Origin: Gemmatimonas sp.
GTDB lineage: Bacteria > Gemmatimonadota > Gemmatimonadetes > Gemmatimonadales > Gemmatimonadaceae
Assembly (NCBI GenBank): GCA_021154325.1
Contig: JAJKIR010000151.1
Location: 1 to 64,000 of the forward strand
Direction: 5' to 3'
DNA length: 64,000 bases
The translations under genes and the position numbers were made by a program. The notes beneath the pieces were generated by a model. It worked only from the letters and a program-made list of their open reading frames with translations. It was not told the DNA's origin and did not search any database. This document shows positions 14,856 to 45,396 of this stretch, in pieces (the stretch's first letter is position 1; every line of letters begins with the position of its first letter).

Positions 14856-16823
14856 TTATTCAGTCGCTCTTCCCGCTGTCGCCGTTCTTCGTTCGTTAGG
14901 TATGTGCATTCCCTCGAACACCTGGAGCGCGAGCTCCACCTTCCCGAACGGCGCGGATACCTGCGCACCCTGGACGACCTCGCGCACCCGCGTCAGCATC
15001 TCGCGGGCGATTGCGATCCCCTCCGCCGTCGCGTGCTCCTTCGACTTCTCGGTCGCTCGGCGCATCCGCGCAATCACTTCGGCGGGAACCGACACGCCCG
15101 GCACCTCGTTCGCCAGGAACTCCGCGTTCCGAAGCGAAACCAGCGGCCAGATGCCGGCAATCACCGGGATGCGCACGTGCGCGATCGACTTGAGGAACTT
15201 CTCGAGCTGCGCCGCGTCGAATACCGGCTGGGTGATCGCGTACTCCGCGCCCGCCTCGACCTTCCACTCGAACCGTCGCAGCTCGTGCGCCGCGTCGATC
15301 GCGGCGGGATTCACGCCTACCCCGATCGCGAACTTCGTCGGCTCGCCGATGGCGTTGCCACCCGGGTCGAGACCGCGGTTCAGGTTCCGCACGAGATTCG
15401 TCAACCCGATCGAGTCGATGTCGAAGACCGCGGTCGCGTCGGGATACGGCCCCATCTTCGGCGGGTCGCCGGTGATGATGAGTAGGTTCCGCAGCCCGAT
15501 CGCCGCCGCGCCTAACAAGTCGCTCAGCATGCCGAGCAGGTTGCGATCGCGGCAGGCGTAATGCGTCACCGTCTCGATCCCGACCTGCTGCTCGATGAGC
15601 ACGCTCGTGAGGAGCGCGCCCATCCGGCTCTGCGCGCGCGGCCCATCCGGGACATTGACGGCGTCCACGCCAGCGTCCTTGAGCTTCCGGACGTCGGCGA
15701 CCATGCGCGAACCGTCCACACCGCGAGGCGGCACGATCTCGACCGACGTCACGAACTCACCCGCTGCGATGCGGGAGGCGAATCGAGATCGCTCCGGGAA
15801 CGGAGTGGCGAGTGGCGAGTGGCGAGTGGCGGGTGAATCGGAGTGCGAAGACCCGAGCGCTCCATGAGCGCTTCGTTCCGATTGACTCGCCACTCGTCCC
15901 TTGTCACTCGCCACCGCGGCCAAACGCGGATTCAACGGCCGGATCCCTTCGCAGATCGCCTTGATGTGCTCGGGGGTCGTTCCGCAGCAGCCACCCAGGA
16001 CCTTCGCGCCGGCGTGAATGAGATGGCGCGCGTACGTGGCCATGTACTCCGGGCTCGCCATGTACATGCTGCGGCCCCCGACGTCGCGCGGCATGCCCGC
16101 GTTAGGCTGCGCGCTCAGCTTTCGTCGCGTTACCGGCGTCATGCGCTCGATGCACTCGAGAATGATCTGCGGACCCACGGAGCAATTGAGGCCGATGACG
16201 TCGGCGCCCCACCCGTCCAGCGCGCGTGCCACGTCTTCCGCGGTGGCGCCGTACGACGTTCGGTGATCCGCGCCGATCGTCATCTGTGCGACGACCGGCA
16301 TCGACGGGTCGACCTCGCGCGCCGCGCGGATCGCTTCCTTGATCTCGTGCAGATCGCCGAACGTCTCGAGGATGAAGAGGTCGGCGCCGCCGTCCTTGAG
16401 CGCGGCCATCTGCTCGCGGAAGACCGCGCGCGCGTCCGCTTCACTCGTCGGGCCGTATGGCTCGAGCCGCACGCCTAACGGGCCGATCGCGCCGGCGACG
16501 AGCACCGGGTGTTCGGCCTCGTCCGCGACCGCGCGCGCAAGCTGCGCCGCCGAGCGATTGATCGCCTCCACCTGCCCCTCGAGCCCGTACTGCGTCAGCT
16601 TCAGCCGGTTCGCGCCGAAGCTGTTCGTTTCCAGCACTTCGGCTCCGGCTTTGACATACTGCCGATGAATTTCGCGAATGAGATCCGGCGAGCGGACGTT
16701 CAGCTCGTCGTAGCACTGATTGATGAACACGCCGCGCTGATAGAGCATCGTCCCCATCGCGCCATCGAAGAGGACGATCCGCTCGGGATCGACGAGCCGG
16801 TCGAGCAGCGCTCGCTTCGTCAT
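14856..16823 (-). CDS. Bifunctional homocysteine S-methyltransferase / methylenetetrahydrofolate reductase
   Basis: 655 aa. Residues 1-300 form a homocysteine-binding barrel with VLFDGAMGTML near the start, a Cys ligand in GLNCSVGP and GGCCGT near 282, the three zinc Cys of the family. Residues about 345-655 form an FAD-dependent MetF-type barrel (TSVEIVPPRG, LLIITGDPP, EYAITQPVFDA). Such fusions (as in Bacillus YitJ) reduce methylene-THF and methylate homocysteine. Residues about 302-340 are a low-complexity linker encoded by a 7-nt tandem/inverted repeat (SERSAHGALG, HSPLATPF). Its ATG overlaps the MetH stop by four bases, so the two are translationally coupled and share the upstream riboswitch. 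Confidence 0.93.
   Translation of the reverse strand: MTKRALLDRLVDPERIVLFDGAMGTMLYQRGVFINQCYDELNVRSPDLIREIHRQYVKAGAEVLETNSFGANRLKLTQYGLEGQVEAINRSAAQLARAVADEAEHPVLVAGAIGPLGVRLEPYGPTSEADARAVFREQMAALKDGGADLFILETFGDLHEIKEAIRAAREVDPSMPVVAQMTIGADHRTSYGATAEDVARALDGWGADVIGLNCSVGPQIILECIERMTPVTRRKLSAQPNAGMPRDVGGRSMYMASPEYMATYARHLIHAGAKVLGGCCGTTPEHIKAICEGIRPLNPRLAAVASDKGRVASQSERSAHGALGSSHSDSPATRHSPLATPFPERSRFASRIAAGEFVTSVEIVPPRGVDGSRMVADVRKLKDAGVDAVNVPDGPRAQSRMGALLTSVLIEQQVGIETVTHYACRDRNLLGMLSDLLGAAAIGLRNLLIITGDPPKMGPYPDATAVFDIDSIGLTNLVRNLNRGLDPGGNAIGEPTKFAIGVGVNPAAIDAAHELRRFEWKVEAGAEYAITQPVFDAAQLEKFLKSIAHVRIPVIAGIWPLVSLRNAEFLANEVPGVSVPAEVIARMRRATEKSKEHATAEGIAIAREMLTRVREVVQGAQVSAPFGKVELALQVFEGMHIPNERRTATAGRATE
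15803..15916. repeat. In-frame 7-nt tandem/inverted repeat inside the linker of the fused enzyme
   Basis: Left arm: successive GAGTGGC units starting near 15803. Right arm: ACTCGCC units near 15885-15912. The middle holds GTGCGAAG/CTTCGTTCC. The arms face each other as in the intergenic elements, but the whole element lies inside the coding region exactly between the homocysteine-methyltransferase and MTHFR domains and keeps the reading frame open. Confidence 0.85.
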
Positions 16824-19800
16824 CGCGTCGTCACCGTCGACAGCTCGCGGCGCTCCGCCGCGTCACCAGCCTGGCCGCGAACGGCGTAATACTTCGCCTC
16901 CGGATGGTGGACGATGATCGCCGCCGTGCTCTGTTCGGGCACTAGCTGGAACGCTGACGTCAGCTCCATTCCGAGCTCCTTCTCGGCCGGGAGGAGCTTG
17001 AAGACCGTCGCGTGATCGTCGAGGTCCGGACAGGCGCCGTAGCCCCACGAGTAGCGCTTGCCGCGGCCGCCCGGTATCCCCAGCTCACGTCGCAACCGGC
17101 GATGCAGCCACTCGGCGAGCGCCTCCGCAGTTTCCACAGCGAGGCCGTGCACGTAAAACGCCTCGGTGTACTCGCCGGCAGTTTGCAACTCTTGAAACTT
17201 CGTTGCCGCGTCGTCGCCGACCGTCACCACCTGCAGACCAACGAGATCGATGTCCGTCGAATCCGTGGGACGGAAATAGTCAGCGATGCAGAGACGCTCG
17301 CGCCCTTCCTGGCGCGGGAAGTGGAAGCGGGCGATCTCACGCGTCGTGCCGTCGCGGGCGTAGGCTTCGGGATCGTAGATGAGCAGATCGTTACCACGCG
17401 ACTGCGTCGGGAAGATTCCGTAGACGGCCTGTGGCTTCAGCCATCCATCGCGCTTCGCCTCCGCCTCGAGCCGAGCCCGCACGGGCTCGAACTCGTTCTT
17501 CACAGTCGCCTCGTACTGCGGTCCCGAACCTCGCGCTCCCCACTGCAGTCGGTACAGCTCGTCGAGATCGAGAAGCGCGAAGACTTCGTCGAGAGGGATG
17601 TCGCCGGTGTGCAACGTCCGAACGCCGTAAAACGGCGCCGCGGGAATCGCGTGGTCCTGGGACACGTTGCTTCGCGCCCCGCCCTGATCGCCGACGGCGA
17701 TGTCCTTGCCGACGGTGGTGCGGAGAAAGACGTCGTTTCGCGCGTCCTCGAGCAGCTTCTTCACGAACGCTTCACGTCGCGACGCGTCGTCGTTCTGCAG
17801 CAGGTCCATCGTCTCGAGACCCTCGAACGCGTCCTTGCAGTAGAAGACACCCGACTCGTAGGCGCGCTCGCCCTCGACGAACATCGCGCGTCGCCCGAAA
17901 CGCCTGTTGATCGCCGCGCCGCCAATCAGGACAGGAATTTCCAACCCGCGCTTGTCGAGCTCCTGCACACAGAGTGGCATCTGCTTCGACGTCGACACGA
18001 GCAGCGCCGAGAGACCGATGGCGTCCGCGTCGACCTCGAGAGCCTTTTCAATGATCGTGTTGACGGGCACCTGCTTGCCGAGATCGTATACCGTGTAGCC
18101 GTTGTTCGAGAGGATCGTGTTCACCAGCGACTTGCCGATGTCGTGCACGTCGCCATACACCGTCGCGAGCACGACTTTCCCCTTGGTGTATCCCTCGGCC
18201 TTCTCGAGAAACTGCTCGAGATGCTTGACCGCGCGCTTCATCACTTCCGCCGACTGCAGCACGAAGGGAAGAATCAGCTCGCCGGCGCCGAACTTGTCGC
18301 CGACTTCCTTCATTGCCGGGAGCAGCACCTGGTTCAGCACACGCACCGGCTCCGCGCGTACGCCGGCGGCATCGAGAGCGTCCTCGATGCCGTCCTTCTT
18401 CCGGTGCACAACCATGTAGTGCACACGCTGGTCGGCGGACATATCCGCAGTAGGATCTTCGACCGCTGCTGCCGTCCCGCGTCCCGCGTCCCGCGTCCCG
18501 AGTCCCTCGATGACCCGCTGAAGGGCGTCGGGGCGCCGGTTGAAGATCAGATCGTCGGCCAGCGCACGATCGGCAGCATCGATCTCCGCGTACGGTTTCA
18601 CGTGCGCCGGGTTCACGATCGCCATGTCGAGCCCCGCCTCGACGCAGTGATGCAGGAAGACGGAGTTGACGACGGCGCGCGCCTCCGGCGCCAGCCCGAA
18701 GCTCACGTTCGAGACGCCTAACGAGGTAAAGACCCCCGGCAGCTCGCGCTTGATCAGGCGAATCCCCTCGATCGTCTCGACGGCAGAATCGGCCATCTCC
18801 GGATCGCCGGTCGCGAGCGTGAAGGTGAGATCGTCATAGATGAGATCCCCGGCCTGCATCCCGTACTCGCCGACGACGATGTCGTAGATCTTCTTCGCGA
18901 TCTCGAGCTTCCGATCGCGCGTCTTTGCCATCCCGATCTCGTCGATCGTGAGCGCGACGAGCGCCGCGCCGTGCTTCTTCGCCAGCGGCACGACGGTGTC
19001 GATGCGCTTGCGGCCATTCTCCATGTTGATGGAGTTGATGATCGCGCGCCCCGGGATGTGCTCCAGCGCCGCCTCGATGACGTTCGCTTCCGTCGAGTCC
19101 ACCATGATCGGCGTCTCGACGCTCATCGACAGCAGCTTCACGACCTTCGACATCTGCTCGGCTTCGTCCGCGCGCTCGGTGAGCGCGACGCAAACATCGA
19201 GCACGTGCGCGCCCGAGTCGACCTGCTCCCGCGCCACGTCGACGATGCCTTCGTAATCATCGGCAAGGAGCAGCCGCTTCACTTTCCGCGACCCCTGCGA
19301 GTTCACCCGCTCGCCGATGAGCAGCGGCGGGGGATCCTGCTTGAGCTCCGTCGCGCGCATCGCGCTGCTCACGCGGGGCACCGTCCCGCGTCCCGCGTCC
19401 CTCATCCCGCGCCCCTCGTCCCGCGTGCCCCGTCCGGCGTCCAAGCGAACTCGCTCGACAATCGCCTGCAAATGCTCCGGACGCGTTCCGCAGCACCCAC
19501 CGACGATGCGCACTCCAAAATCCGAAACGAACTCGCCCAGCATCTTCGCCATCGGCTCGGGCTCGAGCGGATACACCGCGTCACCGGTCCCCGTATTCAG
19601 CGGAAGGCCCGCGTTCGGGATGCACGAGATCGGCCGCGCGGCGTGACTCGTTAGGTAGCGGATCGGCTCACGCATGTGCTCCGGGCCCGTCGAGCAATTC
19701 AGGCCGATGACGTCGACGGGCAGCGCCTCGAGCGTCGTCAATGCGCTCGCGATGTCGGTGCCGAGGAGCATCCGGCCGCTCGTGTCCAGCGTGACCTGCG

Positions 19801-20395
19801 CCTGAATCGGAACCCGCCGACCCAGCTCGGCGAAGAGTCGCTCGAAGCCGGTGACCGCCGCTTTCACCTCCAGGATGTCCTGCGCCGTCTCCACGAGCAG
19901 CACGTCCACGCCGCCCTCGACGAGGTACTTCGCCTGCACGTAGTAGTTCTCGGCCAGATCCGCGAACGAGATGTTGGAGAGCACCGGGTCGCTGCTCGAC
20001 GGCAGCATCCCCGTCGGCCCGATCGAGCCAGCCACGAACCGCGGCCGCTCCGGAGTTGAGAACTTGTCACAGGCCGCGCGCGCTATTCGCGCCGCCGAGA
20101 CGTTGAGGTCTCGTGTCTTCTCTTCGATCCCCCATTCGCGCAGCCGGTGCGGCGTCGACTGGAAGGTGCACGTCTCGACGACGTCGCAGCCTACCGCGAG
20201 AAACGATTCGTGGATCCCCTGGATGATGTCGGGGCGAGTGAGCACGAGGTGATCATTGCACCCCTCGAGCGCCTTCCCGCCGAAATCTTCGGGCGTTGGG
20301 TGTCGGAGCTGAATGTTGGTCCCCATCGCCCCGTCGAAGACCAGCACGTGGTCCGCGAGAGCGTCGAGGTATGACGGGCGTTCGGTATTTGACAT
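16820..20395 (-). CDS. metH: Cobalamin-dependent methionine synthase
   Basis: 1191 aa from ATG 20395 (MSNTERPSYL). Domains in order: homocysteine-binding barrel 1-315 (VFDGAMGTNI; zinc Cys in GLNCSTGP and GGCCGT near 302), pterin-binding barrel about 350-610 (LIGERVNSQGSRKVK), cobalamin-binding region 650-880 with the cobalt-ligand motif DVHDIGKSLV near 745, and the AdoMet-reactivation domain to the end (RYSWGYGACPDLDDH). It transfers methyl from methyl-THF to homocysteine via B12 in the cytoplasm. Two linkers, near 318-339 and 630-641, are encoded by GTCCCGC tandem repeats and read DAGRGTRDEGRG-like. First gene of a metH-MTHFR fusion operon under a SAM-type riboswitch. Confidence 0.95.
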   Translation of the reverse strand: MSNTERPSYLDALADHVLVFDGAMGTNIQLRHPTPEDFGGKALEGCNDHLVLTRPDIIQGIHESFLAVGCDVVETCTFQSTPHRLREWGIEEKTRDLNVSAARIARAACDKFSTPERPRFVAGSIGPTGMLPSSSDPVLSNISFADLAENYYVQAKYLVEGGVDVLLVETAQDILEVKAAVTGFERLFAELGRRVPIQAQVTLDTSGRMLLGTDIASALTTLEALPVDVIGLNCSTGPEHMREPIRYLTSHAARPISCIPNAGLPLNTGTGDAVYPLEPEPMAKMLGEFVSDFGVRIVGGCCGTRPEHLQAIVERVRLDAGRGTRDEGRGMRDAGRGTVPRVSSAMRATELKQDPPPLLIGERVNSQGSRKVKRLLLADDYEGIVDVAREQVDSGAHVLDVCVALTERADEAEQMSKVVKLLSMSVETPIMVDSTEANVIEAALEHIPGRAIINSINMENGRKRIDTVVPLAKKHGAALVALTIDEIGMAKTRDRKLEIAKKIYDIVVGEYGMQAGDLIYDDLTFTLATGDPEMADSAVETIEGIRLIKRELPGVFTSLGVSNVSFGLAPEARAVVNSVFLHHCVEAGLDMAIVNPAHVKPYAEIDAADRALADDLIFNRRPDALQRVIEGLGTRDAGRGTAAAVEDPTADMSADQRVHYMVVHRKKDGIEDALDAAGVRAEPVRVLNQVLLPAMKEVGDKFGAGELILPFVLQSAEVMKRAVKHLEQFLEKAEGYTKGKVVLATVYGDVHDIGKSLVNTILSNNGYTVYDLGKQVPVNTIIEKALEVDADAIGLSALLVSTSKQMPLCVQELDKRGLEIPVLIGGAAINRRFGRRAMFVEGERAYESGVFYCKDAFEGLETMDLLQNDDASRREAFVKKLLEDARNDVFLRTTVGKDIAVGDQGGARSNVSQDHAIPAAPFYGVRTLHTGDIPLDEVFALLDLDELYRLQWGARGSGPQYEATVKNEFEPVRARLEAEAKRDGWLKPQAVYGIFPTQSRGNDLLIYDPEAYARDGTTREIARFHFPRQEGRERLCIADYFRPTDSTDIDLVGLQVVTVGDDAATKFQELQTAGEYTEAFYVHGLAVETAEALAEWLHRRLRRELGIPGGRGKRYSWGYGACPDLDDHATVFKLLPAEKELGMELTSAFQLVPEQSTAAIIVHHPEAKYYAVRGQAGDAAERRELSTVTTR
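18473..18506. repeat. 7-nt tandem repeat GTCCCGC in a metH linker
   Basis: About four copies of GTCCCGC in tandem, the last one degenerate (GTCCCGA). They encode the short GTRDAGRGT stretch between the pterin-binding and cobalamin-binding domains. The same unit occurs in the first linker of this gene at 19.4 kb. Confidence 0.8.
19378..19441. repeat. Degenerate 7-nt tandem repeat in another metH linker
   Basis: About nine degenerate heptads of the GTCCCGC type. They encode a DAGRGTRDEGRGMRD-like linker between the homocysteine-binding and pterin-binding domains. Ordinary MetH proteins have a short linker at this place, so the repeat looks like an addition that was tolerated because it is in frame. 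Confidence 0.8.
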
Positions 20396-20403
20396 TGATG
20401 CGA

Positions 20404-20438
20404 CAAAAAGAAAAAGGCCCAAACGCTGTGCGCCGGGC
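20404..20438 (-). terminator. Intrinsic terminator in the metH leader
   Basis: On the minus strand the hairpin GCCC..CGC-ACA-GCG..GGGC is followed by C-TTTTT-C-TTTTT. It ends nine bases before the metH start codon. The upstream GCGCC of the riboswitch's 3' strand can pair with the GGCGC inside this hairpin, which offers an antiterminator alternative. This supports transcription attenuation of the metH operon. Confidence 0.75.
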
Positions 20439-22365: not shown

Positions 22366-22824
22366 CTATTGTTGATTCTGCCCCTGATTGTTGTTGTTCT
22401 GTCCCTGGCTGTTCTGTCCACCGCTCGCGGCCATTGCAGGCGTTGGCGCCAGGACAGAGAACACCACAGGGAGGGCAACCGTCGCCGCGCCAGCGAGCGT
22501 GAGGCGACGCACGACGTCACGCCGGCTTACCGAGGACTCCGTGACACCCTCGGCGTCCTCGAGCAGCTTCGCGCGGGAGAGCTCGTCCAGGGCATATTCG
22601 ACTACCGAGTCATCAACTTCGGTCCCGAGCTCGGTTGCTAACAAACCGGTGAGATCCTGCACCGAGTGGGTGCCGTCACTCTGGGCCCAAACGAAGCCAG
22701 CCGCGCGATTGAGGGCGTGCGCCTGCTGACGGTCCTTGTCGTAGACGATCGTCTCATCGCGAACGTGGTCGACCAACACCCCATTTCGCCGCGACTTCGG
22801 ATACTGCGCGTCCCGATGCGCCAT
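22366..22824 (-). CDS. PqqD-family protein with C-terminal Tat-like segment and Q/N-rich tail
   Basis: 152 aa from ATG 22824, which has the Shine-Dalgarno AAGGAG seven bases upstream. Residues about 5-90 form a PqqD-like winged domain (DETIVYDKDRQQAHALNRAAGFVW, LTGLLATELG, VEYALDELSRAKLL), the fold that binds leader peptides in RiPP pathways. From about 98 it carries a twin-arginine pattern (SRRDVVRRL), a hydrophobic stretch (TLAGAATVALPVVFSVLAP), an AMA-AS signal-peptidase-like site, and a final Gly/Gln/Asn-only tail. The order domain-then-export-signal is unusual. It lies 22 bases downstream of the HPr-kinase-like gene, so the two form a pair. Confidence 0.85.
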   Translation of the reverse strand: MAHRDAQYPKSRRNGVLVDHVRDETIVYDKDRQQAHALNRAAGFVWAQSDGTHSVQDLTGLLATELGTEVDDSVVEYALDELSRAKLLEDAEGVTESSVSRRDVVRRLTLAGAATVALPVVFSVLAPTPAMAASGGQNSQGQNNNNQGQNQQ

Positions 22825-22846
22825 CGTTTTCTCCTTCAATAGATGT

Positions 22847-23680
22847 TTAACAGGCGGACAAAATCTGATCGGCGACAGCCTCGGCCTCGCCCCGAGCGCT
22901 TCGGATCCCTAACGCATCGACGGTTGCCGTGCAGAGAAGTCGCAGCGCCTCGACCGGTCGGCTCCGTGCGGCGACCGTGTGCTCGAAAAGCGCGAGCACC
23001 CTCTCGCCTGGCGTCATCGAGAGTGGCGACCACACTGCTCCGGGAACGTATTGCGACAGGACCACCGTGCGCACTGGCAATGGCTCGACGCCTATGCGCG
23101 CGCCGAGTGATGAGGGCGCGAGCTGACGGATAGTTCCGTCTCCTTCGCGGATACCTAACGAGCGCGCGAAGGGATGGACGAGCCCTCCGACATCGAGCAC
23201 GGCGTACTCGTCGGAGTAGTATGTCGCTCCCGCGCGCACCAGCGCCGCGACGAGGGAGCTCTTGCCGGCATAGGAGCGCCCCGGGATCAGAATCGCGCCA
23301 CCGTTCCAGCCCACGGCGCCAGCATGAAGAAACACTCTCGTCCGCGCACCCACGGCGACGCTGAAATGGAGACGGCTCTGCAACGATGCGAATAGGGCGT
23401 TTTCATCGCTGGTGCACGTGACGCACTCCTCGCCCTCATAAAGCCGATGCAGGTACTGGCCATCATCGGCGAGGACGACGGAATATCGAGCGTCAGCATC
23501 GCGTGCGTCGCTCGCGCGAGCGCCGGGCGGAATCACGCGCTGAAGTCCGTTCAGCGCCGACCGGTGCGATGCGCGAAGAGCGACGCGAAAACCGTAGGCG
23601 TCGATAGTGAGGCTCGCAGGCCACTCCAGCCGATCGAGGCGGGGAGGACAGGCGCTGCGGTGCTGCAGGACAAGCGACAC
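22847..23680 (-). CDS. HPr-kinase-like P-loop protein (HprK-related)
   Basis: 277 aa from a GTG start preceded by GGGAG. The C-terminal half has the P-loop GRSYAGKSSL near residue 137 within LHAGAVGWNGGAILIPG, and YYSDEYAVLD downstream, the layout of HprK/P kinase cores (single-domain type, without the N-terminal HprK domain). The N-terminal half (about 1-115) is a beta-rich region without recognisable motif. Proteins of this type occur next to PqqD-family proteins in exopolysaccharide and RiPP loci, where they may phosphorylate the partner peptide or a small protein; the substrate is unknown. It is first in a two-gene unit with the PqqD gene. Confidence 0.85.
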   Translation of the reverse strand: MSLVLQHRSACPPRLDRLEWPASLTIDAYGFRVALRASHRSALNGLQRVIPPGARASDARDADARYSVVLADDGQYLHRLYEGEECVTCTSDENALFASLQSRLHFSVAVGARTRVFLHAGAVGWNGGAILIPGRSYAGKSSLVAALVRAGATYYSDEYAVLDVGGLVHPFARSLGIREGDGTIRQLAPSSLGARIGVEPLPVRTVVLSQYVPGAVWSPLSMTPGERVLALFEHTVAARSRPVEALRLLCTATVDALGIRSARGEAEAVADQILSAC

Positions 23681-23911: not shown

Positions 23912-25243
23912 TCATACCCGTGCTCCGAGCACTGCCGTTGGTGCGGCGCGCTCACTCTCGTCGTGAACTGCTAGAAGGCGCTGAGCGCCCATGCCTAACG
24001 CGCAGCCAATAACGCAAGCGATCCAATCCATCCAGGTGCCGAGGTGTGTGCCCGCGAGGCTTGGCGAAGCGACCAGACCAATAACGAGCGCGAAGGCGAC
24101 GACTGCCAGATCCCGGTAAGCTGACGGCGGCTCTCCGGCGCTCCAGAATCCGAGTGGGAAGACCAAGACCATGATCCACACCGCGGAAATGAGCCGAATT
24201 GTTCCGGCCTTCCAGCGACTCCATGGTGAGAGTGCGAGCCACGCAACACTGGGCGACAGGGCGATGTCCGCCGCTTCGGCGATGGTCTTGCCGCGCACCG
24301 AGAGACTCAGCTGTGCAGCCGTGAGCGCGGCCGTGACGACCATCGTGTCGGTCGGCTGTGGACGATTGCCACTGGCCAGTACGTCTTCGAGAACCACCGT
24401 CGGCACCTCGAGGCCAACGCGCCCTGTCAGCGTACGGACTCGAAATCGTAAATCACTCCTTTCCTGATCGAGCTCAACGATCTCGATCTCATCGGTACTA
24501 TCCCCGATGCCCACGATCGTCGACTCTTCGCTGAGTGCCTTCCCTGGAACGAATCGGGCGAGAAGGGCGATGTCGCGCGAAAGCCACATCGCGCCCCGTC
24601 CTTCAATCGGGTTCGACATCCCGCCGCGCAAGCTCGTCCCGGATACGAATGCCGCGAGCAATTCACCGTGGAACCAGTCGTGTCCAACGCCCTGTGGTGC
24701 CCATTGCACGCGATACTGTCCGGGAGGCAACGAGACGCGCAGACCAAACGCGGAGGCGACGAGAATCGCTAGCAGCGCGCTTGTCGCTGACGCGAACAGG
24801 TGCGAGCGAAGCCTTGCGCCAGGGTGAAGTAGCGTGTGCCAATGCGTCGCCAACGAAACACCGGCAGCGGCGCCGAGAGTATTTGACGTCACGTCCATCA
24901 TGCTGGCGTTCCGGCCCGTGATCAGACCAAGCTGCGCGATCTCCACAATCGCGCTTAGTGCAACTGCGATGAGAATTGCCGATCGACTTCGGAGCCCGCC
25001 CTGTCGCAGACCGAAACCAAAAGGCACGTACAGCAGCACGTTACGTAGGATGTCGGGGATACTCGGGTTACCGAACCAGCTCGGCGGGCCCTGATTCCCC
25101 GGGGCCAGAGGTACCATCGTCGTCGCCGCGATGAAGCCGAGGCCCGCGGCGGTAATAAGGCAACCGAGCACGCGTTGTGTCGTGGACCGTGAACGACAGT
25201 CGTGCACGGCACGGACATGGGTCCGAGCGGGATTCCGATCCAT
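23912..25243 (-). CDS. VanZ-type membrane protein with central beta-rich domain
   Basis: 443 aa from ATG 25243; a GTG at 25372 would add 43 residues with no structure. N-terminal VanZ domain: hydrophobic helices with ILRNVLLYVPFGFGLRQGGL and SAIVEIAQLGLITGRNASMMDVTSNTLGAAAG, the conserved VanZ core. The middle (about 150-330) is extracytoplasmic and beta-rich (YRVQWAPQ, WFHGELLAAFVSG, RFRVRTLTGRVGLEVP), reminiscent of LamG/concanavalin-like domains. The C-terminus has three to four TM helices. A second protein with the same architecture lies at 41.2-42.5 kb; both neighbour NodB-type deacetylases. VanZ proteins give low teicoplanin resistance in enterococci; here a polysaccharide-linked role is inferred. 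Confidence 0.75.
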   Translation of the reverse strand: MDRNPARTHVRAVHDCRSRSTTQRVLGCLITAAGLGFIAATTMVPLAPGNQGPPSWFGNPSIPDILRNVLLYVPFGFGLRQGGLRSRSAILIAVALSAIVEIAQLGLITGRNASMMDVTSNTLGAAAGVSLATHWHTLLHPGARLRSHLFASATSALLAILVASAFGLRVSLPPGQYRVQWAPQGVGHDWFHGELLAAFVSGTSLRGGMSNPIEGRGAMWLSRDIALLARFVPGKALSEESTIVGIGDSTDEIEIVELDQERSDLRFRVRTLTGRVGLEVPTVVLEDVLASGNRPQPTDTMVVTAALTAAQLSLSVRGKTIAEAADIALSPSVAWLALSPWSRWKAGTIRLISAVWIMVLVFPLGFWSAGEPPSAYRDLAVVAFALVIGLVASPSLAGTHLGTWMDWIACVIGCALGMGAQRLLAVHDESERAAPTAVLGARV

Positions 25244-25426
25244 TACAGCGGGATATTGAGCTCGTTCCGATTCGCCTGGGTACAGAATCGCGTCATACGC
25301 GAGTTCACTACGGCGATCGTTCGATGCAAGTTGGTACGCCCGAGAGAACCGTAACTCCGAGCGACGATTCACCTCGTCAGGGTCATCTCGGTTACAGCTT
25401 AGTGCTCTGGATCTCCATGAATCGAG

Positions 25427-26512
25427 TCACGACCATGCGGCAGATACCCTTGATGTCCGAAAGAGCCGGCGCACGTTTACCACCGCCCCCTCCAGACCAT
25501 TGATGATCTTCACGAAGTGTGGCTGATCGTCATAGTGGGGAAAGCGCGGAACTGCAAAACGGTACTCGGCCGCGGACTCCTTGACGTCAAGGTACCGCGG
25601 CTCGCTGCAGACGGCCGCTGCCAAATTCATTCGTGCGAGAATGCTCTGCTCGCGGCTGGAATAGTCGCCGTTGGGATAGGAGAAAATTGGAATTGCGTTT
25701 GGCGTGCTTTCCTTGACTCGGCGCCAGGAAGTTTCCAACTCAAAAGCAGCCTGCTCGTCGCCCGTCATTGGGAGAATGGGATGCGTGACCGTGTGCGGAC
25801 CAAAGGTCACACCGGAAGCACCCAGTCGACGGACGTCGTGCCAGCTCATGGGCGCGTACCGCAGCGGCGGAGCTGCCGCCAAGCTGCTGCCGCATGCGGC
25901 CAGGATCTGTTCGATCACCGACAGACGCACAGCGTTAGGGACGCGCTTGAGCCGCGTGGTTAGATCCAGACTGATTCGCATCCGGTCAGATACACTCCCC
26001 AACTCATACTTCAATGCCGCATCATTGATTTCGATCGCGAGCGCGCGACGATCGGTCGAAAGAATCGCAGCCTCGATCCGATCCCACCACAGCCACTCTG
26101 CTCCGTCAATGAATGCCGTCGGGAGAAAGACCGTCACAGGACAGTCGAATGCCGCAAAAATTCTAGAGCCCACCCGCGCGAAGTCGCCGTACCCATCGTC
26201 GACGGTGAACGCGATAGCGGATCGTTCCCGAAGGCTGCCGTCCCGGAGGCCTTCAATGAGCTCCATGAGGCCGAGAACAAGGCAGCGCTCGCGACGGAGT
26301 AGCTCGAGCTGACTACGCAAGATTTGCTCGGGGTGCCCGGCAATTCCATGCGCCGGATCCTCGAACCTGTGCAGAGTGAAGACGATGCAGCGACCGCGTG
26401 TCAGCCGCCGAAGCACTGACGAGGCGACGCGCGTGGTCAACATCGACAATGCAATCCGCTTCGCGCGATGAACGAGACCGGCGTCTGCGTCGAGGTGAGA
26501 AGGGATTAGCAT
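25427..26512 (-). CDS. NodB-type polysaccharide deacetylase (first copy)
   Basis: 361 aa. FTVDDGYGDF near residue 103 is NodB motif 1 with the catalytic-base and metal Asp pair, and GPHTVTHPIL near 234 is motif 2 with the two metal-binding His; FSYPNGDYS near 280 is the later substrate-groove motif. It would remove N-acetyl groups from a polysaccharide or lipid-linked intermediate. No signal peptide is evident. Its ATG overlaps the stop of the upstream glycosyltransferase by seven bases, placing it in an operon with that gene and the flippase. Confidence 0.9.
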   Translation of the reverse strand: MLIPSHLDADAGLVHRAKRIALSMLTTRVASSVLRRLTRGRCIVFTLHRFEDPAHGIAGHPEQILRSQLELLRRERCLVLGLMELIEGLRDGSLRERSAIAFTVDDGYGDFARVGSRIFAAFDCPVTVFLPTAFIDGAEWLWWDRIEAAILSTDRRALAIEINDAALKYELGSVSDRMRISLDLTTRLKRVPNAVRLSVIEQILAACGSSLAAAPPLRYAPMSWHDVRRLGASGVTFGPHTVTHPILPMTGDEQAAFELETSWRRVKESTPNAIPIFSYPNGDYSSREQSILARMNLAAAVCSEPRYLDVKESAAEYRFAVPRFPHYDDQPHFVKIINGLEGAVVNVRRLFRTSRVSAAWS

Positions 26513-27624
26513 GGGTTCTCGGTGTCGCGTGACGCAGCATGGACCGCACGCGATTTCCGTCGGGCGGAGCGTACGCGCCGTATCGCTGTTCTCATGCCCT
26601 CAGGGGCGAACGTCGAGGCGAGCAGCAGCGCCGCCCGTCGCCGGCGTCGGATCCACAGACTCTGCCAAAGGTGCGCGCGCGCTTTGGCGTCGTTGCCCTC
26701 CTGGAGCTCCGCTTCTCCCACCCAGAGATGAAGATCGGACATCCGCTGCTCCATCCAGCCCGACGGCAATTGCGCGCGCGCACCCCCGTCTGCCATCCAG
26801 CGGTTCACGGTGCGAAGCGCGTTTCTGGCGATCGTTGCCCCATACCGTGGGGCAGTGAGCTGGTCTGCGGCTCCGATCCGGTACAGAACGCTGGGCCAGT
26901 CCAGGAACGCAACCGGGCCATGCCATGTTGTGCGGGTGTGGAACTCATAGTCTTCTCCCGACGGAGAAAACGATTCGTCGAATCCTCCAACTCGCATCAA
27001 CCGTGAACGCCGGAGCAGCACCGTCGACGTGTGTACCAAGCTCCCCATAAGCATGTAGGCGAACAGGTCTCCAGAGTACATCGGAGCCGTTGCGACGGAC
27101 TCGGGAGCATCCGACCATGCGTCCTTCAGCACCCCACCAGGGGTAGCCACCTCTTCGAGATGAACGGTTTGATACGTGGCGTACATCGTTCGGAGGTATC
27201 GTTCCTGGCGTAGCTTGCCCTCCCAATCCAGCGCCGTCATGTCCGTCCACACCATCCCGGCGGTGGGAAATCGCCGCAGAACCGCCAACTGCGCCTCCGC
27301 TTTCCATGGAAGCCAAGCGTCATCCGAGTCGAGCAGCGCGACGAACTCGCCCCGCGTGTGCCGCAGTCCAAGATTTCGCGCCGACGAGACGCCTCTATTC
27401 TCTTGCCGGTAATAGCGGACGCGCGATCCGTAACTCCGGACCAGCCCCTCGGTATCGTCGGTCGACCCGTCGTCAGCAATGATCACCTCTACGCTGGCGT
27501 AGGTCTGCTGAAGCGCGCTCTCGATTGCGCGACCCAAGACGTGCGCGCGATTGTACGTGGGAATCACCACGCTCACCAGCCCCGCCTCTCCGGGGCCATG
27601 CACGATTCCCGGCGGAATTTTCAT
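26506..27624 (-). CDS. Family 2 glycosyltransferase
   Basis: 372 aa from ATG 27624, which overlaps the flippase stop in an ATGA. GT-A fold: SVVIPTYNRAHVLGRAIESA near residue 18, IIADDGSTDDTE, and LLDSDDAWLPW near residue 105 carrying the nucleotide-sugar DxD equivalent. FSPSGEDYEFHTRTTW near 215 supplies the ED acceptor-base motif. Soluble, no TM helices. It transfers a sugar from a nucleotide donor to a growing repeat unit at the inner face of the membrane; the sugar is not predictable. A longer frame upstream of the ATG is antisense-like and was rejected. Confidence 0.9.
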   Translation of the reverse strand: MKIPPGIVHGPGEAGLVSVVIPTYNRAHVLGRAIESALQQTYASVEVIIADDGSTDDTEGLVRSYGSRVRYYRQENRGVSSARNLGLRHTRGEFVALLDSDDAWLPWKAEAQLAVLRRFPTAGMVWTDMTALDWEGKLRQERYLRTMYATYQTVHLEEVATPGGVLKDAWSDAPESVATAPMYSGDLFAYMLMGSLVHTSTVLLRRSRLMRVGGFDESFSPSGEDYEFHTRTTWHGPVAFLDWPSVLYRIGAADQLTAPRYGATIARNALRTVNRWMADGGARAQLPSGWMEQRMSDLHLWVGEAELQEGNDAKARAHLWQSLWIRRRRRAALLLASTFAPEGMRTAIRRVRSARRKSRAVHAASRDTENPC

Positions 27625-29105
27625 GTACGTGCCGCGACTGCTGTTCGATAACCCGAAAAGGGCGTGACTACGATGCCCCGCCGGCTCTTGACCCTCACAG
27701 CCAGCACCACGGCTCGGACCACGCCGGCGATTGCGGTTGCGCAGGCCGTCCCAATGACACCGAACCTGGGTGTCAGCACGAGGCTCAGGGCGAGGTTGAG
27801 GACGGCACTCCCACCGATGACAAAGCTGGCCTCGTGCTGGAGCCCGGTCATGGTCATGATAAACCCCGACAGCGCCCCAACGCTCGCGGCGACGACAACT
27901 CCCACGCTGAGCACGAGCAACACAGGGTAGCCGGCGACGAATCCTGGTCCGAACCAACCCAGCGCTACCTTGCCGAAAATCGCTATCAGAGGAACCACGG
28001 GAAGCGAGATAGCGAGGTTGAGGCGAGTCGCGATAGTGACGAGCCGCTGAAGATCTCCGAGTCGACGCTGCGCATACAGCGACGATATCAAAGGAGTTGT
28101 AATGAACAGCACGCCGGTCACGCCGAACCCGATCAGGGTAGCAAACTGGTTCGCCACGCCATATACCCCTGCCTGGGCTGTCCCGAGATATGTGCCGACG
28201 ATGAGCACATCGCTCTGGGCAGAGAGCACCAGGTTCGCACCCGCAATTATGACCATACTCGCCGCAGTGCGCATCCACTCCGCAGTTGCATAGTACGGGG
28301 TAGCTCGTGCAATCGGCTCGGTCATGGTCCACCGCAGCAGAGCACTGCTAAGCACAAGCGCGGCACTGGTGGCGCCGAACTGGATAGCAAGCGCACCAGC
28401 AGCGTTCAATCGAGTGCCCAATCCGTGCGCCAATACCAGAACCGTCAGCCCGACGAGCAGTGGCCGAACCAACAGATTCGGAGAGAGCGCTCGCCGCACC
28501 TCTTTGAATCCCTGCAGGCATCCTGCCTGTAGCCATAGCAGGGCCGTGACGGGAATCAGTGCGCATCCGAGATAGTAAGCGCCCACCCGCTCTGTGCCGA
28601 TGACGCCCCGTAGGACCCATGTCCCAATGACGGTCGCAACAGCTACGACGAGCGTTGTTCCGCCGACGATCTCGTGGCTCCGGCGAAGGAAGCCTCGCAG
28701 CAGCGCCCACTCCCGTGTACCTGCGTACGCACCAACGTAACGGATGGCACACGGGTCGAACTCCAGCTTCGCAACGAGCACCGCGATGTTTACCGCAGCG
28801 AGAACGTAGAGGTACAAGCCATACTGCTCCTGATGCAGAGTTCGGACGAGAAGGAGCTGAACAAAAAATCCGAGCGCCATGGCGAGCGCATTGATGGCAA
28901 AGGACCAGAGGGCGCCCCTTGCGATAGTCGCGCCCAAGGCGCTGCTCGCACGTAACCACTGCAACGAGGAGGCGAGCCTCCCCGACGTCCGATCGGGTCT
29001 CCGGCCTTCCGTCAAGGCTGAGCTGTGAACCGCCAGTGAGTCGGACGAACTGAACTCCGGCCCGCTCCTTACCATTGCGGCTTCGGCGGATATGAACAGC
29101 CCCAA
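27621..29105 (-). CDS. Wzx-type polysaccharide flippase (MOP superfamily)
   Basis: 494 aa with about 12-14 hydrophobic segments after a 60-residue polar N-terminus. The start of the membrane part, IARGALWSFAINALAMALGFFVQLLLVRTLHQEQYGLYLYV, follows the usual flippase layout (G.G....LR.L...YG.Y). The later SDVLIVGTYLGTAQAGVYGVANQFATL is the mid-protein repeat found in Wzx proteins. It would flip undecaprenyl-linked repeat units to the periplasm. First gene of the flippase-GT2-deacetylase operon. A second ATG 11 codons in is also possible. Confidence 0.9.
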   Translation of the reverse strand: MGLFISAEAAMVRSGPEFSSSDSLAVHSSALTEGRRPDRTSGRLASSLQWLRASSALGATIARGALWSFAINALAMALGFFVQLLLVRTLHQEQYGLYLYVLAAVNIAVLVAKLEFDPCAIRYVGAYAGTREWALLRGFLRRSHEIVGGTTLVVAVATVIGTWVLRGVIGTERVGAYYLGCALIPVTALLWLQAGCLQGFKEVRRALSPNLLVRPLLVGLTVLVLAHGLGTRLNAAGALAIQFGATSAALVLSSALLRWTMTEPIARATPYYATAEWMRTAASMVIIAGANLVLSAQSDVLIVGTYLGTAQAGVYGVANQFATLIGFGVTGVLFITTPLISSLYAQRRLGDLQRLVTIATRLNLAISLPVVPLIAIFGKVALGWFGPGFVAGYPVLLVLSVGVVVAASVGALSGFIMTMTGLQHEASFVIGGSAVLNLALSLVLTPRFGVIGTACATAIAGVVRAVVLAVRVKSRRGIVVTPFSGYRTAVAART

Positions 29106-31198: not shown

Positions 31199-32371
31199 AT
31201 GAGTTCGGCGGAATCGATTCTTCGTAAGCACCGTGAAGCGCGGCTTGTGTTCGCACTGGCGGGACCGCGAACCTCGTGGCCCGAGCTCGAAACCCAGAGT
31301 CTCGACTGGCCACGACTGCTTGCAATCGCTTCGAAGCATAGAGCGGTCATCGCCACGCGTCGCTACTTCAGTCACAGCGAGGCCGATCGAATACCTCGTG
31401 AGGCCGAGCTCCAACTCGCCGTCCTGGCGCTCGACGCCAAACAGCGAATGCTCCGTCTGGAGCAGCGCCTCCAGGAATCTTTGGCCGCGCTGCACGATGC
31501 AGGGATTTCAGTTACGCTGCTGAAAGGCGCAGCGATCGGCCTCGGAGTCTATTGCGCAATGGCCGAGCGGATGATGAGCGATATCGATCTTCTCGTCGAC
31601 GCCGAACAGGTGCTCGACGCTCGGGATGTTCTGAAGCGCGTCGGCTGGGTCATGGACGCATCCCTTCCCGGCGACGAGTCATATGCTGGGCATCATCACC
31701 TTCCTCCGCTTCTCGACGTGAGTGGTACGGACTGTCGACTGGAGCTGCATACCGCCATCCTGCCGACGGCCCATCCATTCGACTTGCCCCATCGCGCGAT
31801 ACAGGGCGCCTCACGAGAGTTGCGGGTGGGAAACACTCCAGTAAGAGTGCTCGGCGCAACGCACTATGCATTGCATGTCGCCACTCACTGGGCCTGGGCC
31901 AATGAGCTTGTCGATGGAGCGTGGAATGCATTCCGAGACTTGGCTACACTCATCGAGCGCGGGATGCTGAATCTCGAGCACTTTGCCCAAGAGGCGATCG
32001 TGTGGCGCGCCGCGACATGTGCGTATTGGACGCTCCGCTTAGGAAGCCGACTCGCCGGCCTCCCGGCGCCCACGGCGGTGATGCGTCGTTTGAAGCCGCC
32101 GTTGCCTGAGGCAGTGCTCTCCAGACTGGAACGACACTTTCTTCGGCAGCTTCTGGATCGAAGAGACTCTTGCCCGTCGATCACCATGACGCGCGCGCTC
32201 TGGTCGCTGGCCATTTGTCCCACGCAGAGTGGCCACGGCGTAACGCGCCCGTGGCTCGCATTGCCCGAGCTGAGCCTCGCGCGGGCCGCCGTCCACCGGG
32301 TCTCGATCGCTAATCGAGATCGTGCGCGAAGAGCGATGAAGGGTTTTGTATATCTCGCGGATGTGCTCTGA
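31199..32371 (+). CDS. Nucleotidyltransferase family protein (NTP_transf_5-like)
   Basis: 390 aa. LLKGAAIGLGVY near residue 103 followed by MMSDIDLLVD near 122 is the DxD nucleotidyltransferase pattern of the PF14907-type family, which is common in exopolysaccharide and lasso-peptide loci. The mid region (HLPPLLDVSGTDCRLELH, HYALHVATHWAW) provides the His-rich segment also seen there. It presumably transfers a nucleotide to a polymer, lipid or peptide partner; the acceptor is unknown. It stands alone on the plus strand and converges on the FkbM gene. Its family is often found with HPr-kinase-like and PqqD proteins, which are 8 kb away here. Confidence 0.8.
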   Translation: MSSAESILRKHREARLVFALAGPRTSWPELETQSLDWPRLLAIASKHRAVIATRRYFSHSEADRIPREAELQLAVLALDAKQRMLRLEQRLQESLAALHDAGISVTLLKGAAIGLGVYCAMAERMMSDIDLLVDAEQVLDARDVLKRVGWVMDASLPGDESYAGHHHLPPLLDVSGTDCRLELHTAILPTAHPFDLPHRAIQGASRELRVGNTPVRVLGATHYALHVATHWAWANELVDGAWNAFRDLATLIERGMLNLEHFAQEAIVWRAATCAYWTLRLGSRLAGLPAPTAVMRRLKPPLPEAVLSRLERHFLRQLLDRRDSCPSITMTRALWSLAICPTQSGHGVTRPWLALPELSLARAAVHRVSIANRDRARRAMKGFVYLADVL

Positions 32372-40221: not shown

Positions 40222-41280
40222 ATGTTAGGGATGCTGCGTGCAACTCGCCGCCGGACGCTCGGTATGCTTCGCGACATAGGCGTGTTCCGCCTTTGCAGCG
40301 ACAGCGAATGGCGAAGGTCCCGACTGTCCATCCTGTGTTATCACGGGGTATCAATCGACGACGAGCACGAATGGAATCCAAGCCTCTACATCAGCGTCGA
40401 TACACTCGAGCAACGCCTCGCGCTGTTGAAAGCCGCGCGCTACAACGTTCTCCCGCTCGGCGAGGCGATCACAAGGTTGTACACCAACACCCTTCCGGAA
40501 CGCTGCGTCTGCATCACCTTCGATGATGGCATGCATGACTTTGCCGTCCGAGCAGCGCCTGTTCTCGAGCGTTATGGGTTTCCCGCGACAGTCTATCTCA
40601 CCACGTACTACTGCGAGGTTCGCCGACCGATCTTCGGTCTGGCTCTCGCATACGTGATGTGGAAGAGGCGTCGCGATGTCCTGCATGCACCGGAGCTCAT
40701 CGGCGATGACCGGTGGTGGAATCTCGCTGACGAGTCTGAGAAGACGGACGCGTATTGGAGCGTAATCGCGTATGCAAATGATCAGGACCTCAGTGTGTTC
40801 GATCGCGATGCGCTCGTCCGGGCCGTCGCCGAGCAACTCGGCGTCGATTATGACGAGGTCCTACGTACGCGACATTTGCAGCTCTTAAGCCCAGATGAAG
40901 TCGCGTCGCTCTCGGCGCGCGGATTCGACATCCAACTGCATACGCATCGGCATAGGACCCCCGTTAACGAAGGACTTTTCCGACGGGAGCTGCGGGATAA
41001 TCGACGTCGCATCCGCGAGTATACTGGAAAAGATCCAACTCACTTCTGTTATCCGAGCGGCGTCTATCGACCAGAGTTCTACGATTGGCTCCGCGGGGAA
41101 CAGGTGGCCACCGCCACTACGTGCGATCCGGGAGTCGCCACTCGACACACTCCGGCGCTTCAGCTCCCGCGATTGGTCGACAGCTCACGACTGAGTGCGG
41201 TCGAGTTCGAGGGCTGGCTTACTGGTGTGAGCTCGATGCTTCCACACCGCCCCGCCGCCGCCGCGAAGACTGGCGCCTAA
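40222..41280 (+). CDS. NodB-type polysaccharide deacetylase (second copy)
   Basis: 352 aa from ATG 40222 (MLGMLRATRRR). CITFDDGMHDFAVRAAPVLERYGFPATVYLTTYYCE near residue 95 is NodB motif 1. The His motif is QLHTHRHRTP near 240 (HxHxH instead of HxxxH spacing) and THFCYPSGVYRPEF near 280 follows. A 100-residue insertion separates the first two motifs. It overlaps the convergent VanZ-type gene by 62 bases. Shares the NodB-next-to-VanZ arrangement with the pair at 24-26.5 kb. Confidence 0.88.
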   Translation: MLGMLRATRRRTLGMLRDIGVFRLCSDSEWRRSRLSILCYHGVSIDDEHEWNPSLYISVDTLEQRLALLKAARYNVLPLGEAITRLYTNTLPERCVCITFDDGMHDFAVRAAPVLERYGFPATVYLTTYYCEVRRPIFGLALAYVMWKRRRDVLHAPELIGDDRWWNLADESEKTDAYWSVIAYANDQDLSVFDRDALVRAVAEQLGVDYDEVLRTRHLQLLSPDEVASLSARGFDIQLHTHRHRTPVNEGLFRRELRDNRRRIREYTGKDPTHFCYPSGVYRPEFYDWLRGEQVATATTCDPGVATRHTPALQLPRLVDSSRLSAVEFEGWLTGVSSMLPHRPAAAAKTGA

Positions 41281-42301
41281 CGAATTCCGACGTCCGTCGC
41301 GGATGGCGATACGACGTCGCGAGTAGCGCTCCGACGGCGAGTCCTGCGATCGCGGCAGTCCACTCCGTCCAGCCGCTCAGTGGGATGCCGGCAATCCACG
41401 GCACCAACAGCAACGCACCCGCCGTTGCGAGCGACAGGAGCGCTCGAAATTTACGGACGGTCGCTGGCGCGCCGGTGCGAGTCGCCCAGAAACTGCCAAT
41501 GGTGAGGATCGCAAAGAGCCATAGCGCCGTTCCGGCCGCGATCGCGCTATTGCCGGAAGGCGCGTGACGCAGGAGGAAGAGCCATGCCCAGCTGCTGCTC
41601 AGCGGCAGCTGATTGCTGGTCAGGCCATGCGGCGATTGCACTTCTATCGCGAGCTGGCCGTCGCGAAGCCTTCCAATAATTGTCGTGGCGGTGCCCGGCG
41701 CGGGGAGCGACGAGGCGCGGAAAACGGGATTGGCAAAGCCTGCTGCTTCCGCGCGCATCCTGACACGAAAGACGACTGCGTCCTTGTCCTGACCGAGCAT
41801 CGCCACGACGTGATTATGTTCATCGGCAATCGCCGTGATCGCCGCGACGCCGCGTGTTGGCTCTCCAGTGACGATTCGACTGACCAGCTCACAACCTATC
41901 TCTGGCGATTGACGAACGGCGGCCACCGTGGCGGCATCCACCTGCGAGCCGCCGACGAGACCGGCCTCGGCCAGACGAGCACTGTACAGCGTGCCGTGAA
42001 ATCGGTCGGCGTATAATCGGTGCGGAGGAGCGAATTGCGCCCACCACGGCCCCTCTGGAAACGCGGGCCGAAGCAGCCAACTTGTTAGGCCGTTCAGGGC
42101 GAGCAATCCGGCGGCGATGACGAGAGTGAGTCGCTGAGCAACTCGAGCGCCAGGTGCGAGCAGAGTCTTCGCATGCGCGGAGAGAACGACGCCCAGGAAT
42201 GCTCCGAGCATGTTGGTGATCACGTCCTGAATCGATGCGTACCTGCCGGCGATCCAGCAATACTGCGCTGCCTCGATGATGACGGAGAGCGCAGAGCACA
42301 A
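41219..42301 (-). CDS. VanZ-type membrane protein with central beta-rich domain (second copy, start uncertain)
   Basis: 360 aa from a TTG at 42301, but the same frame continues upstream to a stop at 42524 and that part is clearly VanZ-like: FAFVLICVATLVPSSGAKR and then IDAFQNVLLYVPLGLALHRN, matching the first copy (ILRNVLLYVPFGFGLRQGGL). No ATG, GTG or TTG occurs in the 74 upstream codons, so the real start may be CTG or ATC, or a frameshift is present. The body contains VIIEAAQYCWIAGRYASIQDVITNMLGA (VanZ core), a beta-rich central domain (WWAQFAPPHRLYADRFHGTLYSARL) and three C-terminal TM helices. Convergent with the second deacetylase. Confidence 0.75.
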   Translation of the reverse strand: MCSALSVIIEAAQYCWIAGRYASIQDVITNMLGAFLGVVLSAHAKTLLAPGARVAQRLTLVIAAGLLALNGLTSWLLRPAFPEGPWWAQFAPPHRLYADRFHGTLYSARLAEAGLVGGSQVDAATVAAVRQSPEIGCELVSRIVTGEPTRGVAAITAIADEHNHVVAMLGQDKDAVVFRVRMRAEAAGFANPVFRASSLPAPGTATTIIGRLRDGQLAIEVQSPHGLTSNQLPLSSSWAWLFLLRHAPSGNSAIAAGTALWLFAILTIGSFWATRTGAPATVRKFRALLSLATAGALLLVPWIAGIPLSGWTEWTAAIAGLAVGALLATSYRHPRRTSEFVRRQSSRRRRGGVEASSSHQ

Positions 42302-44297: not shown

Positions 44298-45396
44298 GTT
44301 TGCTCCATGTGAATCGGCGGAGTTGCGAGTCGAGCTGATTGGAGATGATGCGGGCCGGATGCACTGCGAGCGCGAGCTCATTGCGCGCGGCGTCGCGATG
44401 CCGCTGCCGCATCGCGTGGCTTGGTATCGATCGGGGCTGACTGCAACATCGTCCCTCCTCGTCCTGAGGGCCGAGGACGGGACGCCGCTAGCTGCGTGCG
44501 CGATCGGCCGCTTCCCCAGTCGGGCACTTCCCGGGTATTACATCTGGCGCGTGGAACGATTGATGTGGCGCCTTGGCGAGCAGATAACTGCGCGCGCATT
44601 TGATGCAATTGTCGAGATGGCCCGGCGTGATGGTCGCGTGCTGAGGGTCGTCGTCGAGCTCTGCGACCGCAATGCGGAGGCGCGTAATCAGAATTCGCGC
44701 GTGTTAGCCGCGAGCGGCTTCGAGCGCGCTCGGGTGCCGCGCACCTACGCCGAGACCATTGCAATCGATCTCGATGCGCCGCTCGATAGCGTCTTTGCAA
44801 CGCTGCAACGGTCCGCGCGCCGAAATGTACGCTCCACGACCAAGAGCGGCCTCGCCGTCAAGACCATCGAGGATGCACGTCATGCGTCGCGCATGAACCA
44901 GCTCCTCGAGGAAACCATGGCTCGTACCGGGGGCGTCCACACACCAGTCGATTGGCGCTCCGTTATAAGGCTTTCCAAGAGTGAACCCTCCCTGTCACGG
45001 CTCGTGGGACTCTTTCACGGTGACGACGCTGATGAGTGTTCACTGCTCGCTTTCGCCTGGGGATGTAATCATGGCGAATATGTCACCTACGACCTCGCCG
45101 CGAGCACTCGGCAGGTACCGGTGCGGGTGCCTCTCGCGTACGCGCTGGCCTGGGATATCATCTCCTGGGCACACGGCAACAGCGCTCAATGGTTCGATTT
45201 CGGTGGGGTAACGAGAGGCCAGCTCGGCGACGACGATCCGCTCGGTGGAATCTCGGACTTCAAGCGCTTCTTCTCGGATACGGTCGTTTCCGTTGGCGAA
45301 GACTGGATTTTCGAGCCGAGCCGCATGCGCAGTGCGGTCGCAGGCGCGGTCAGCGCCGGCGCGTCACTCGTCCGTCGCGTAAGAAATGTCGGCTAA
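44290..45396 (+). CDS. FemAB/GNAT-like acyltransferase
   Basis: 368 aa from GTG 44290, overlapping the previous stop by eight bases; a TTG at 44275 is the alternative. Two GNAT lobes typical of FemAB-type proteins: the first includes LLVLRAEDGTPLAACAIGRF, the second LQRSARRNVRSTTKSGLAV near residue 178 and LLAFAWGCNHGEYVTYDLAAST near 255, ending with WFDFGGVTRGQLGDDDP and SDFKRFFSD. In exopolysaccharide loci such proteins are predicted to attach an amino acid or acyl group to the sugar chain; the true peptidoglycan FemX function is unlikely. Confidence 0.8.
   Translation: MSEFAPCESAELRVELIGDDAGRMHCERELIARGVAMPLPHRVAWYRSGLTATSSLLVLRAEDGTPLAACAIGRFPSRALPGYYIWRVERLMWRLGEQITARAFDAIVEMARRDGRVLRVVVELCDRNAEARNQNSRVLAASGFERARVPRTYAETIAIDLDAPLDSVFATLQRSARRNVRSTTKSGLAVKTIEDARHASRMNQLLEETMARTGGVHTPVDWRSVIRLSKSEPSLSRLVGLFHGDDADECSLLAFAWGCNHGEYVTYDLAASTRQVPVRVPLAYALAWDIISWAHGNSAQWFDFGGVTRGQLGDDDPLGGISDFKRFFSDTVVSVGEDWIFEPSRMRSAVAGAVSAGASLVRRVRNVG

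Follow-up and report, generated by a model that had tools for sequence, protein, structure and literature searches.

The locus comprises two adjoining genes on the minus strand of the window, by which we mean the whole 64,000-nucleotide stretch analysed. The downstream gene (positions 22366–22824) encodes a protein of 152 residues, a candidate precursor, and begins with an ATG at 22824 behind a GAAGGAG Shine–Dalgarno sequence. A gap of 22 bp separates it from the upstream gene (22847–23680), which encodes its presumed partner, an HprK-like P-loop kinase of 277 residues. The region yielded no sigma-70-like promoter. From its N terminus, the 152-residue protein consists of a PqqD domain, the motif SRRDVVRRL, a hydrophobic stretch, the sequence PTPAMA-AS and an 18-residue tail rich in Gln and Asn (GGQNSQGQNNNNQGQNQQ). 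Both genes lie at the coordinates given in the initial annotation, and the protein has the motifs described there.

The PqqD (RRE) domain spans approximately residues 24–84 (22573–22755, minus strand). It matches Pfam family PF05402 over residues 24–83 (24.7 bits, against a cut-off of 23.4) and, in an AF2 model with a mean pLDDT of 83, is predicted with a pLDDT above 93 as three strands and three helices. This winged-helix RRE fold, together with the Pfam match above the cut-off, places the protein among the PqqD/RRE proteins, and its nearest folds in the PDB are the lasso B1 proteins TbiB1 and TfuB1, and also PqqD (Foldseek). PqqD/RRE domains are known to bind peptides, and an RRE usually stands alone as a protein or forms part of a modifying enzyme.

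The domain is followed by a Tat-like signal, SRRDVVRRLTLAGAATVALPVVFSVLAPTPAMA (approximately residues 100–131; 22432–22527, minus strand), in which RR precedes the hydrophobic segment and which scores 14.7 bits with the TAT signal model TIGR01409, slightly under the cut-off of 16.7. Cleavage after AMA would leave AASGGQNSQGQNNNNQGQNQQ (22369–22431, minus strand) as the putative released peptide. Signal and tail were modelled with moderate confidence only. In the AF2 model residues 121–125 form a β-strand, which might dock on the protein's own RRE in the manner of a leader; this hint was set aside, as the strand is absent from a second model. The coding stretch of the tail overlaps a two-copy tandem repeat of 21 nucleotides, a plausible origin of the tail.

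The kinase carries, in order, the motifs HAG, GRSYAGKS (the P-loop) and SDE. The kinases of the family qualify as HprK-like, with the P-loop pattern present in 40 of 45 sequences, the His in 39 and SDE or SDD in 38; in 34 of these 38, Glu replaces the second catalytic Asp (SDE). A PDB sequence search with an alignment of the kinase returned generic P-loop proteins only. The arrangement resembles the HPr-rel-A system, in which an HprK-related kinase adjoins a PqqD-type protein, and both proteins give partial matches to the corresponding models. However, the scores are far under the curated cut-offs, both for the kinase (TIGR04352, HprK_rel_A; E = 2e-12, but 46.7 bits against 200) and for the 152-residue protein (TIGR04353, PqqD of HPr-rel-A; 15.1 bits against 35), and the PqqD protein here bears a signal and a tail; the pair thus falls outside HPr-rel-A.

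A candidate third member, an NTP_transf_5 nucleotidyltransferase (31199–32371, plus strand; PF14907, E = 5e-30), lies 7.5 kb from the pair on the opposite strand, and belongs to a family that is a close neighbour in most relatives. Over 56 homologue loci, several of them on short contigs, the HprK-like gene is present at 40 and NTP_transf_5 at 37. The initial annotation's description of the peptide system as self-contained is at best partly supported, because a kinase gene, and usually a nucleotidyltransferase gene too, accompanies the precursor. Loci L129, L133 and L154 are among those with neither gene in the fetched stretch.

The pair closes a series of surface-polysaccharide genes (23912–29105, minus strand, upstream of the pair), encoding a VanZ-domain protein, a polysaccharide deacetylase, a GT2 glycosyltransferase and a flippase by Pfam assignment, which we take as context only. 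Relatives with polysaccharide genes include locus L075, with CpsB/CapC, and 12 of 34 Acidobacteriota loci, with a UDP-GlcNAc 2-epimerase and glycosyltransferases. On inspection, no polysaccharide genes were found at the second locus of the source genome (contig C219) or at C10 of the congeneric genome G001. Because these two loci show none, the tie is common without being a defining feature: the proposed link to surface polysaccharide is seen here and in a sizeable share of the relatives but not in others, and a general polysaccharide system was rejected on account of C219. The polysaccharide region of the window contains two VanZ-domain proteins with long C-terminal extensions (23912–25372 and 41219–42301), as well as a FemAB/GNAT-type acyltransferase (44275–45396).

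Homologues were sought in 395 Gemmatimonadota and 297 Acidobacteriota genomes, in a further family search and in one collection scan; 64 full-length proteins, distributed over these two phyla, were kept after inspection of the results. The collection scan, run over genome contigs with a narrower alignment, gave eight loci (seven Gemmatimonadota and one Acidobacteriota), and tblastn against plasmids gave Gemmatirosa kalamazoonensis only, a species whose kinase–precursor pair is of the Cys-tailed kind. PF05402 is matched by 61 of the 64 members at E ≤ 0.1. The source genome encodes two further such proteins on C219, flanking one HprK gene, and G001, its nearest relative, has an HprK gene with two such proteins in tandem. 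No published description of the architecture, of HprK–PqqD pairs, of HPr-rel-A or of PF14907 was found in the open-access literature, nor was an NCBIfam or Pfam model covering the fusion; the family, widespread in two phyla of mostly soil bacteria, is apparently undescribed. By inspection, the precursor gene adjoins apparent RNA polymerase and ribosomal protein or elongation factor genes at five Gemmatimonadota loci (L071, L072, L076, L077 and L081).

Tat substrates are characterized by an S/T-R-R-x-hydrophobic-hydrophobic-K/R motif, a hydrophobic core and AxA; a long N-terminal domain ahead of the signal is unusual among them. All 64 members have RR followed by a hydrophobic signal-like segment. 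RR is immediately preceded by Ser or Thr in 47, RR+3 and RR+4 are mostly hydrophobic, and RR+5 is Arg or Lys in 52; beyond the hydrophobic segment comes a Pro and, in most, AxA or a close variant. These motif statistics, the canonical signals of the split relatives described below and the presence of two TatC genes in the source genome conform in sequence to a Tat substrate. Because TIGR01409 picks up the signal in 15 of the 64 members (E ≤ 0.1) and the window protein lies just under its cut-off, we regard Tat as likely, and not more than likely, as the export route of the fused form.

The tails, up to about 86 residues long, are for the most part Cys-rich; others are rich in Ser, Thr and Pro, and three near relatives have Q/N tails. 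Cys content rises from 1.7% before RR to 13.6% after it. The 53 Cys-containing tails have 2, 6, 8, 10 or 12 Cys in all but one case, and the number is even in 52 of the 53 and in all 18 representatives after clustering at 50% identity. Even Cys counts are typical of oxidised, secreted peptides. In one Cys-tailed member (L125), the tail was modelled as a folded mini-domain (pLDDT of about 88) behind a low-confidence linker. Many tails recall cystine-knot peptides (knottins) in their Cys spacing, a CC pair and even Cys counts, with weak Pfam knottin matches; they differ in sharing a chain with a preceding RRE and bacterial signal, and the window tail is free of Cys. At L129 (1674–3745), three precursors lie in tandem, each with a different Cys-rich tail, and the fetched stretch contains no kinase; a member at L139 (2652–3053) ends straight after the signal (VEAYD), practically without a tail, its HprK gene still adjoining.

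Only three genes were found to encode the Q/N tail, those of the window, C219 and G001. Its copies are pairwise identical at 14–15 of 18 positions, against about 51% identity in the PqqD domain, and dN is 0.10–0.14 in the tail and 0.35–0.41 in the PqqD domain, with synonymous sites near saturation. Because this identity persists despite near-saturated synonymous sites, the tail is, by sequence comparison, under selection, in this subgroup more strongly than the PqqD domain; chance low complexity was rejected on the same grounds. The initial annotation had made its reading depend on a conserved tail, and conservation holds in the Q/N subgroup and fails across the family as a whole, where tails vary. 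N-glycosylation of the Q/N tail was rejected, as it contains no NxS/T.

Some neighbouring genes match the tail class. A PF11397 GlcNAc transferase and an HtrL_YibB protein occur only in the four loci with Ser/Thr/Pro tails, and MauE occurs in five loci with Cys tails, where two of the MauE ORFs also give weak thioredoxin-type matches. Three of these nine loci (L165, L166 and L167) were retrieved when the pattern was already apparent; all three fit it. The association of the GlcNAc transferase with Ser/Thr/Pro tails (Fisher p = 3e-4) is not independent because its four loci make up one clade; the MauE loci fall in two places of the PqqD tree, and the tail–enzyme associations as a whole are mostly clade-bound. 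Lasso clusters have comparable disulfide helpers, SviE of the DoxX family and the thioredoxin SviF (PMC9266682), which MauE and the weak thioredoxin-type matches recall; here, however, the membrane protein is of the MauE family, is confined to a minority of loci and is absent from the window.

Related Gemmatimonadota loci have a split arrangement. They encode a stand-alone PqqD protein of about 90–130 residues, often near HprK and NTP_transf_5, and a separate peptide of 70–100 residues with a canonical Tat signal at its start (SRREFLLK, RRSFLK or RRKFIK) and a short variable tail (for example, MSEERDPTRREFLLKLARGAAYTAPAVATF... and MTRDDRRSFLKTLAAGLVYTAPVVASLAAP...). The separate peptide gene was located in about 14 of 23 split loci, in 10 of the 23 at E ≤ 1.1e-3 with a profile built solely from the signal segments of fused proteins and in about four by inspection or weaker scores. 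In the PqqD tree, a strongly supported branch parts fused from split forms; the exceptions are two rows, long or truncated, and inspection showed one of them (L191) to be a fusion itself. Because the peptide of the split relatives has a Tat-signal gene to itself, the window protein is readable as an RRE and a precursor that were joined once or split once. A row of NTP_transf_5, an S24-like peptidase, a stand-alone PqqD, a radical SAM/SPASM enzyme and a 63-residue Cys-containing peptide on contig C102 (L024, 4438–9315) is a second peptide locus of the source genome, of radical-SAM type.

The closest comparison is with the tailoring set of lasso clusters, in which PadeK/PsmK (HprK-like), PsmN (nucleotidyltransferase) and B1 (PqqD) represent the same three families (PMC8498205, PMC9266682). 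There, the homologous kinase adds a phosphate to the peptide, and placing hexoses on this phosphate requires the nucleotidyltransferase (PMC8498205, PMC9266682). The likeness extends to a small exported peptide as presumed substrate, to the lasso B1 structures nearest to the RRE model and to the kinase motif, His-Lys-Asp-Asp in lasso kinases (PMC9266682) and His-Lys-Asp-(Asp/Glu) here, to which HAG, GRSYAGKS and SDE of the window kinase are close. The systems differ in that RRE and peptide here form one chain and a Tat-type signal takes the place of the lasso leader. The substrates of PadeK-type kinases end in Ser, unlike the tails of this family, and C-terminal Ser phosphorylation was rejected, as only one of the 64 proteins ends in Ser. 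A transglutaminase-like B2 protease was not found beside the pair, and the only PF13471 match in the genome is weak and in an unrelated context; neither B2 nor a cyclase, which next to the precursor would mark lasso biosynthesis, was seen beside the pair, the search by family having covered B2. The locus is apparently a variant of an RRE/HprK/nucleotidyltransferase peptide system without lasso machinery.

The sequences present a fused architecture, its conservation, variable tails, gene partners and split relatives; for the export route, cleavage, modification and function of the family, we infer the following. The protein is probably the one-chain precursor of an exported peptide, comprising RRE, Tat-type leader and product. 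Kinase and nucleotidyltransferase would mature it ahead of export, the mid-chain twin-arginine signal would direct it through Tat, and signal peptidase would cut at AxA, so that the tail is released to the periplasm or the surface. Once outside, Cys-rich tails would form disulfides and Ser/Thr/Pro tails would carry sugars; the Q/N peptide of the source genome is probably a surface or matrix component. Comparison lends good support to the core of the initial annotation, an exported peptide on one chain with its RRE, through the RR and signal-like segment of the 64 homologues and the unfused Tat-signal relatives. Even Cys counts, the mini-domain modelled in one Cys-tailed member and the tail-matched enzymes likewise favour a tail that acts as separate, variable cargo, and the lasso precedents PadeK/PsmK and PsmN count as support for the one-chain precursor. 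Weighing against it are the moderate modelling confidence for signal and tail, the sub-threshold Tat score, the long domain ahead of the signal, the Glu at the second catalytic Asp position of the kinase, tails without a terminal Ser, the clade-bound tail–enzyme associations, the loci with neither partner gene and the distant NTP_transf_5 gene on the other strand.

The main rival is an uncleaved signal anchor, with which a cytoplasmic PqqD domain would dock HprK and NTP_transf_5 for another substrate, a glycan or a protein, and the tail would be an external tether. A protein of type II topology whose RR supplied the positive-inside charges would have a similar appearance, and PqqD–HprK pairs do occur in polysaccharide loci here and in many relatives. 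It is nonetheless unlikely in view of the AxA or close variant in most members, the even-Cys, lineage-specific tails, the small Tat-signal genes of split loci, which encode no other domain worth anchoring, and a Q/N tail better conserved than its PqqD domain. We consider it quite improbable that the peptide is exported unmodified, with PqqD serving in cis as a chaperone for the export competence of signal or tail and the kinase regulating it by phosphorylating PqqD or the linker: the tail-matched enzymes (GlcNAc transferase and MauE/thioredoxin) and the lasso precedent point to the tail as substrate, and the PqqD of split loci stands alone, as expected of an RRE. In favour of this reading, the kinase accompanies the family more constantly than does any tail-specific enzyme, and the tails have no phospho-acceptor motif in common, unlike lasso precursors with their C-terminal Ser. 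That a degenerate lasso locus has left a B1-like protein, a kinase and a nucleotidyltransferase beside a chance low-complexity extension would account for the three families shared with phosphoglycosylated lasso clusters, but is highly improbable; the extension is conserved over 64 proteins, contradicting a remnant, and the reading was rejected for want of a B2 protease beside the pair.

At the least, these data describe a conserved family of small, putatively exported proteins. More tentatively, the one-chain precursors of Gemmatimonadota and Acidobacteriota may constitute a new class of Tat-exported, RRE-led peptide products, in which recognition domain, leader and product share one polypeptide, the product chemistry (disulfide mini-proteins, glycosylated Ser/Thr/Pro or Q/N peptides) changes while the recognition and export module ahead of it stays constant, and an HprK-like kinase and NTP_transf_5 are the core modifiers. 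If so, a substrate-borne RRE with a Tat signal would represent a new maturation logic, cytoplasmic modification followed by export, and the family would comprise dozens of unstudied small disulfide-rich or glycosylated peptides from poorly cultured bacteria. It would also supply a substrate hypothesis for HprK-like kinases and for the 'uncharacterised' NTP_transf_5 proteins outside lasso clusters.

Elsewhere in the window, heptanucleotide tandem repeats (CGTCCCG and GAGTGGC) are present at 18473–18506, 19382–19442 and 15803–15835. They sit in the genes for methionine synthase (16820–20422) and a homocysteine methyltransferase/MTHFR-like protein (14856–16823), where in frame they encode GTRDAGRGT- and SDSPATRHSPLATPF-like insertions.
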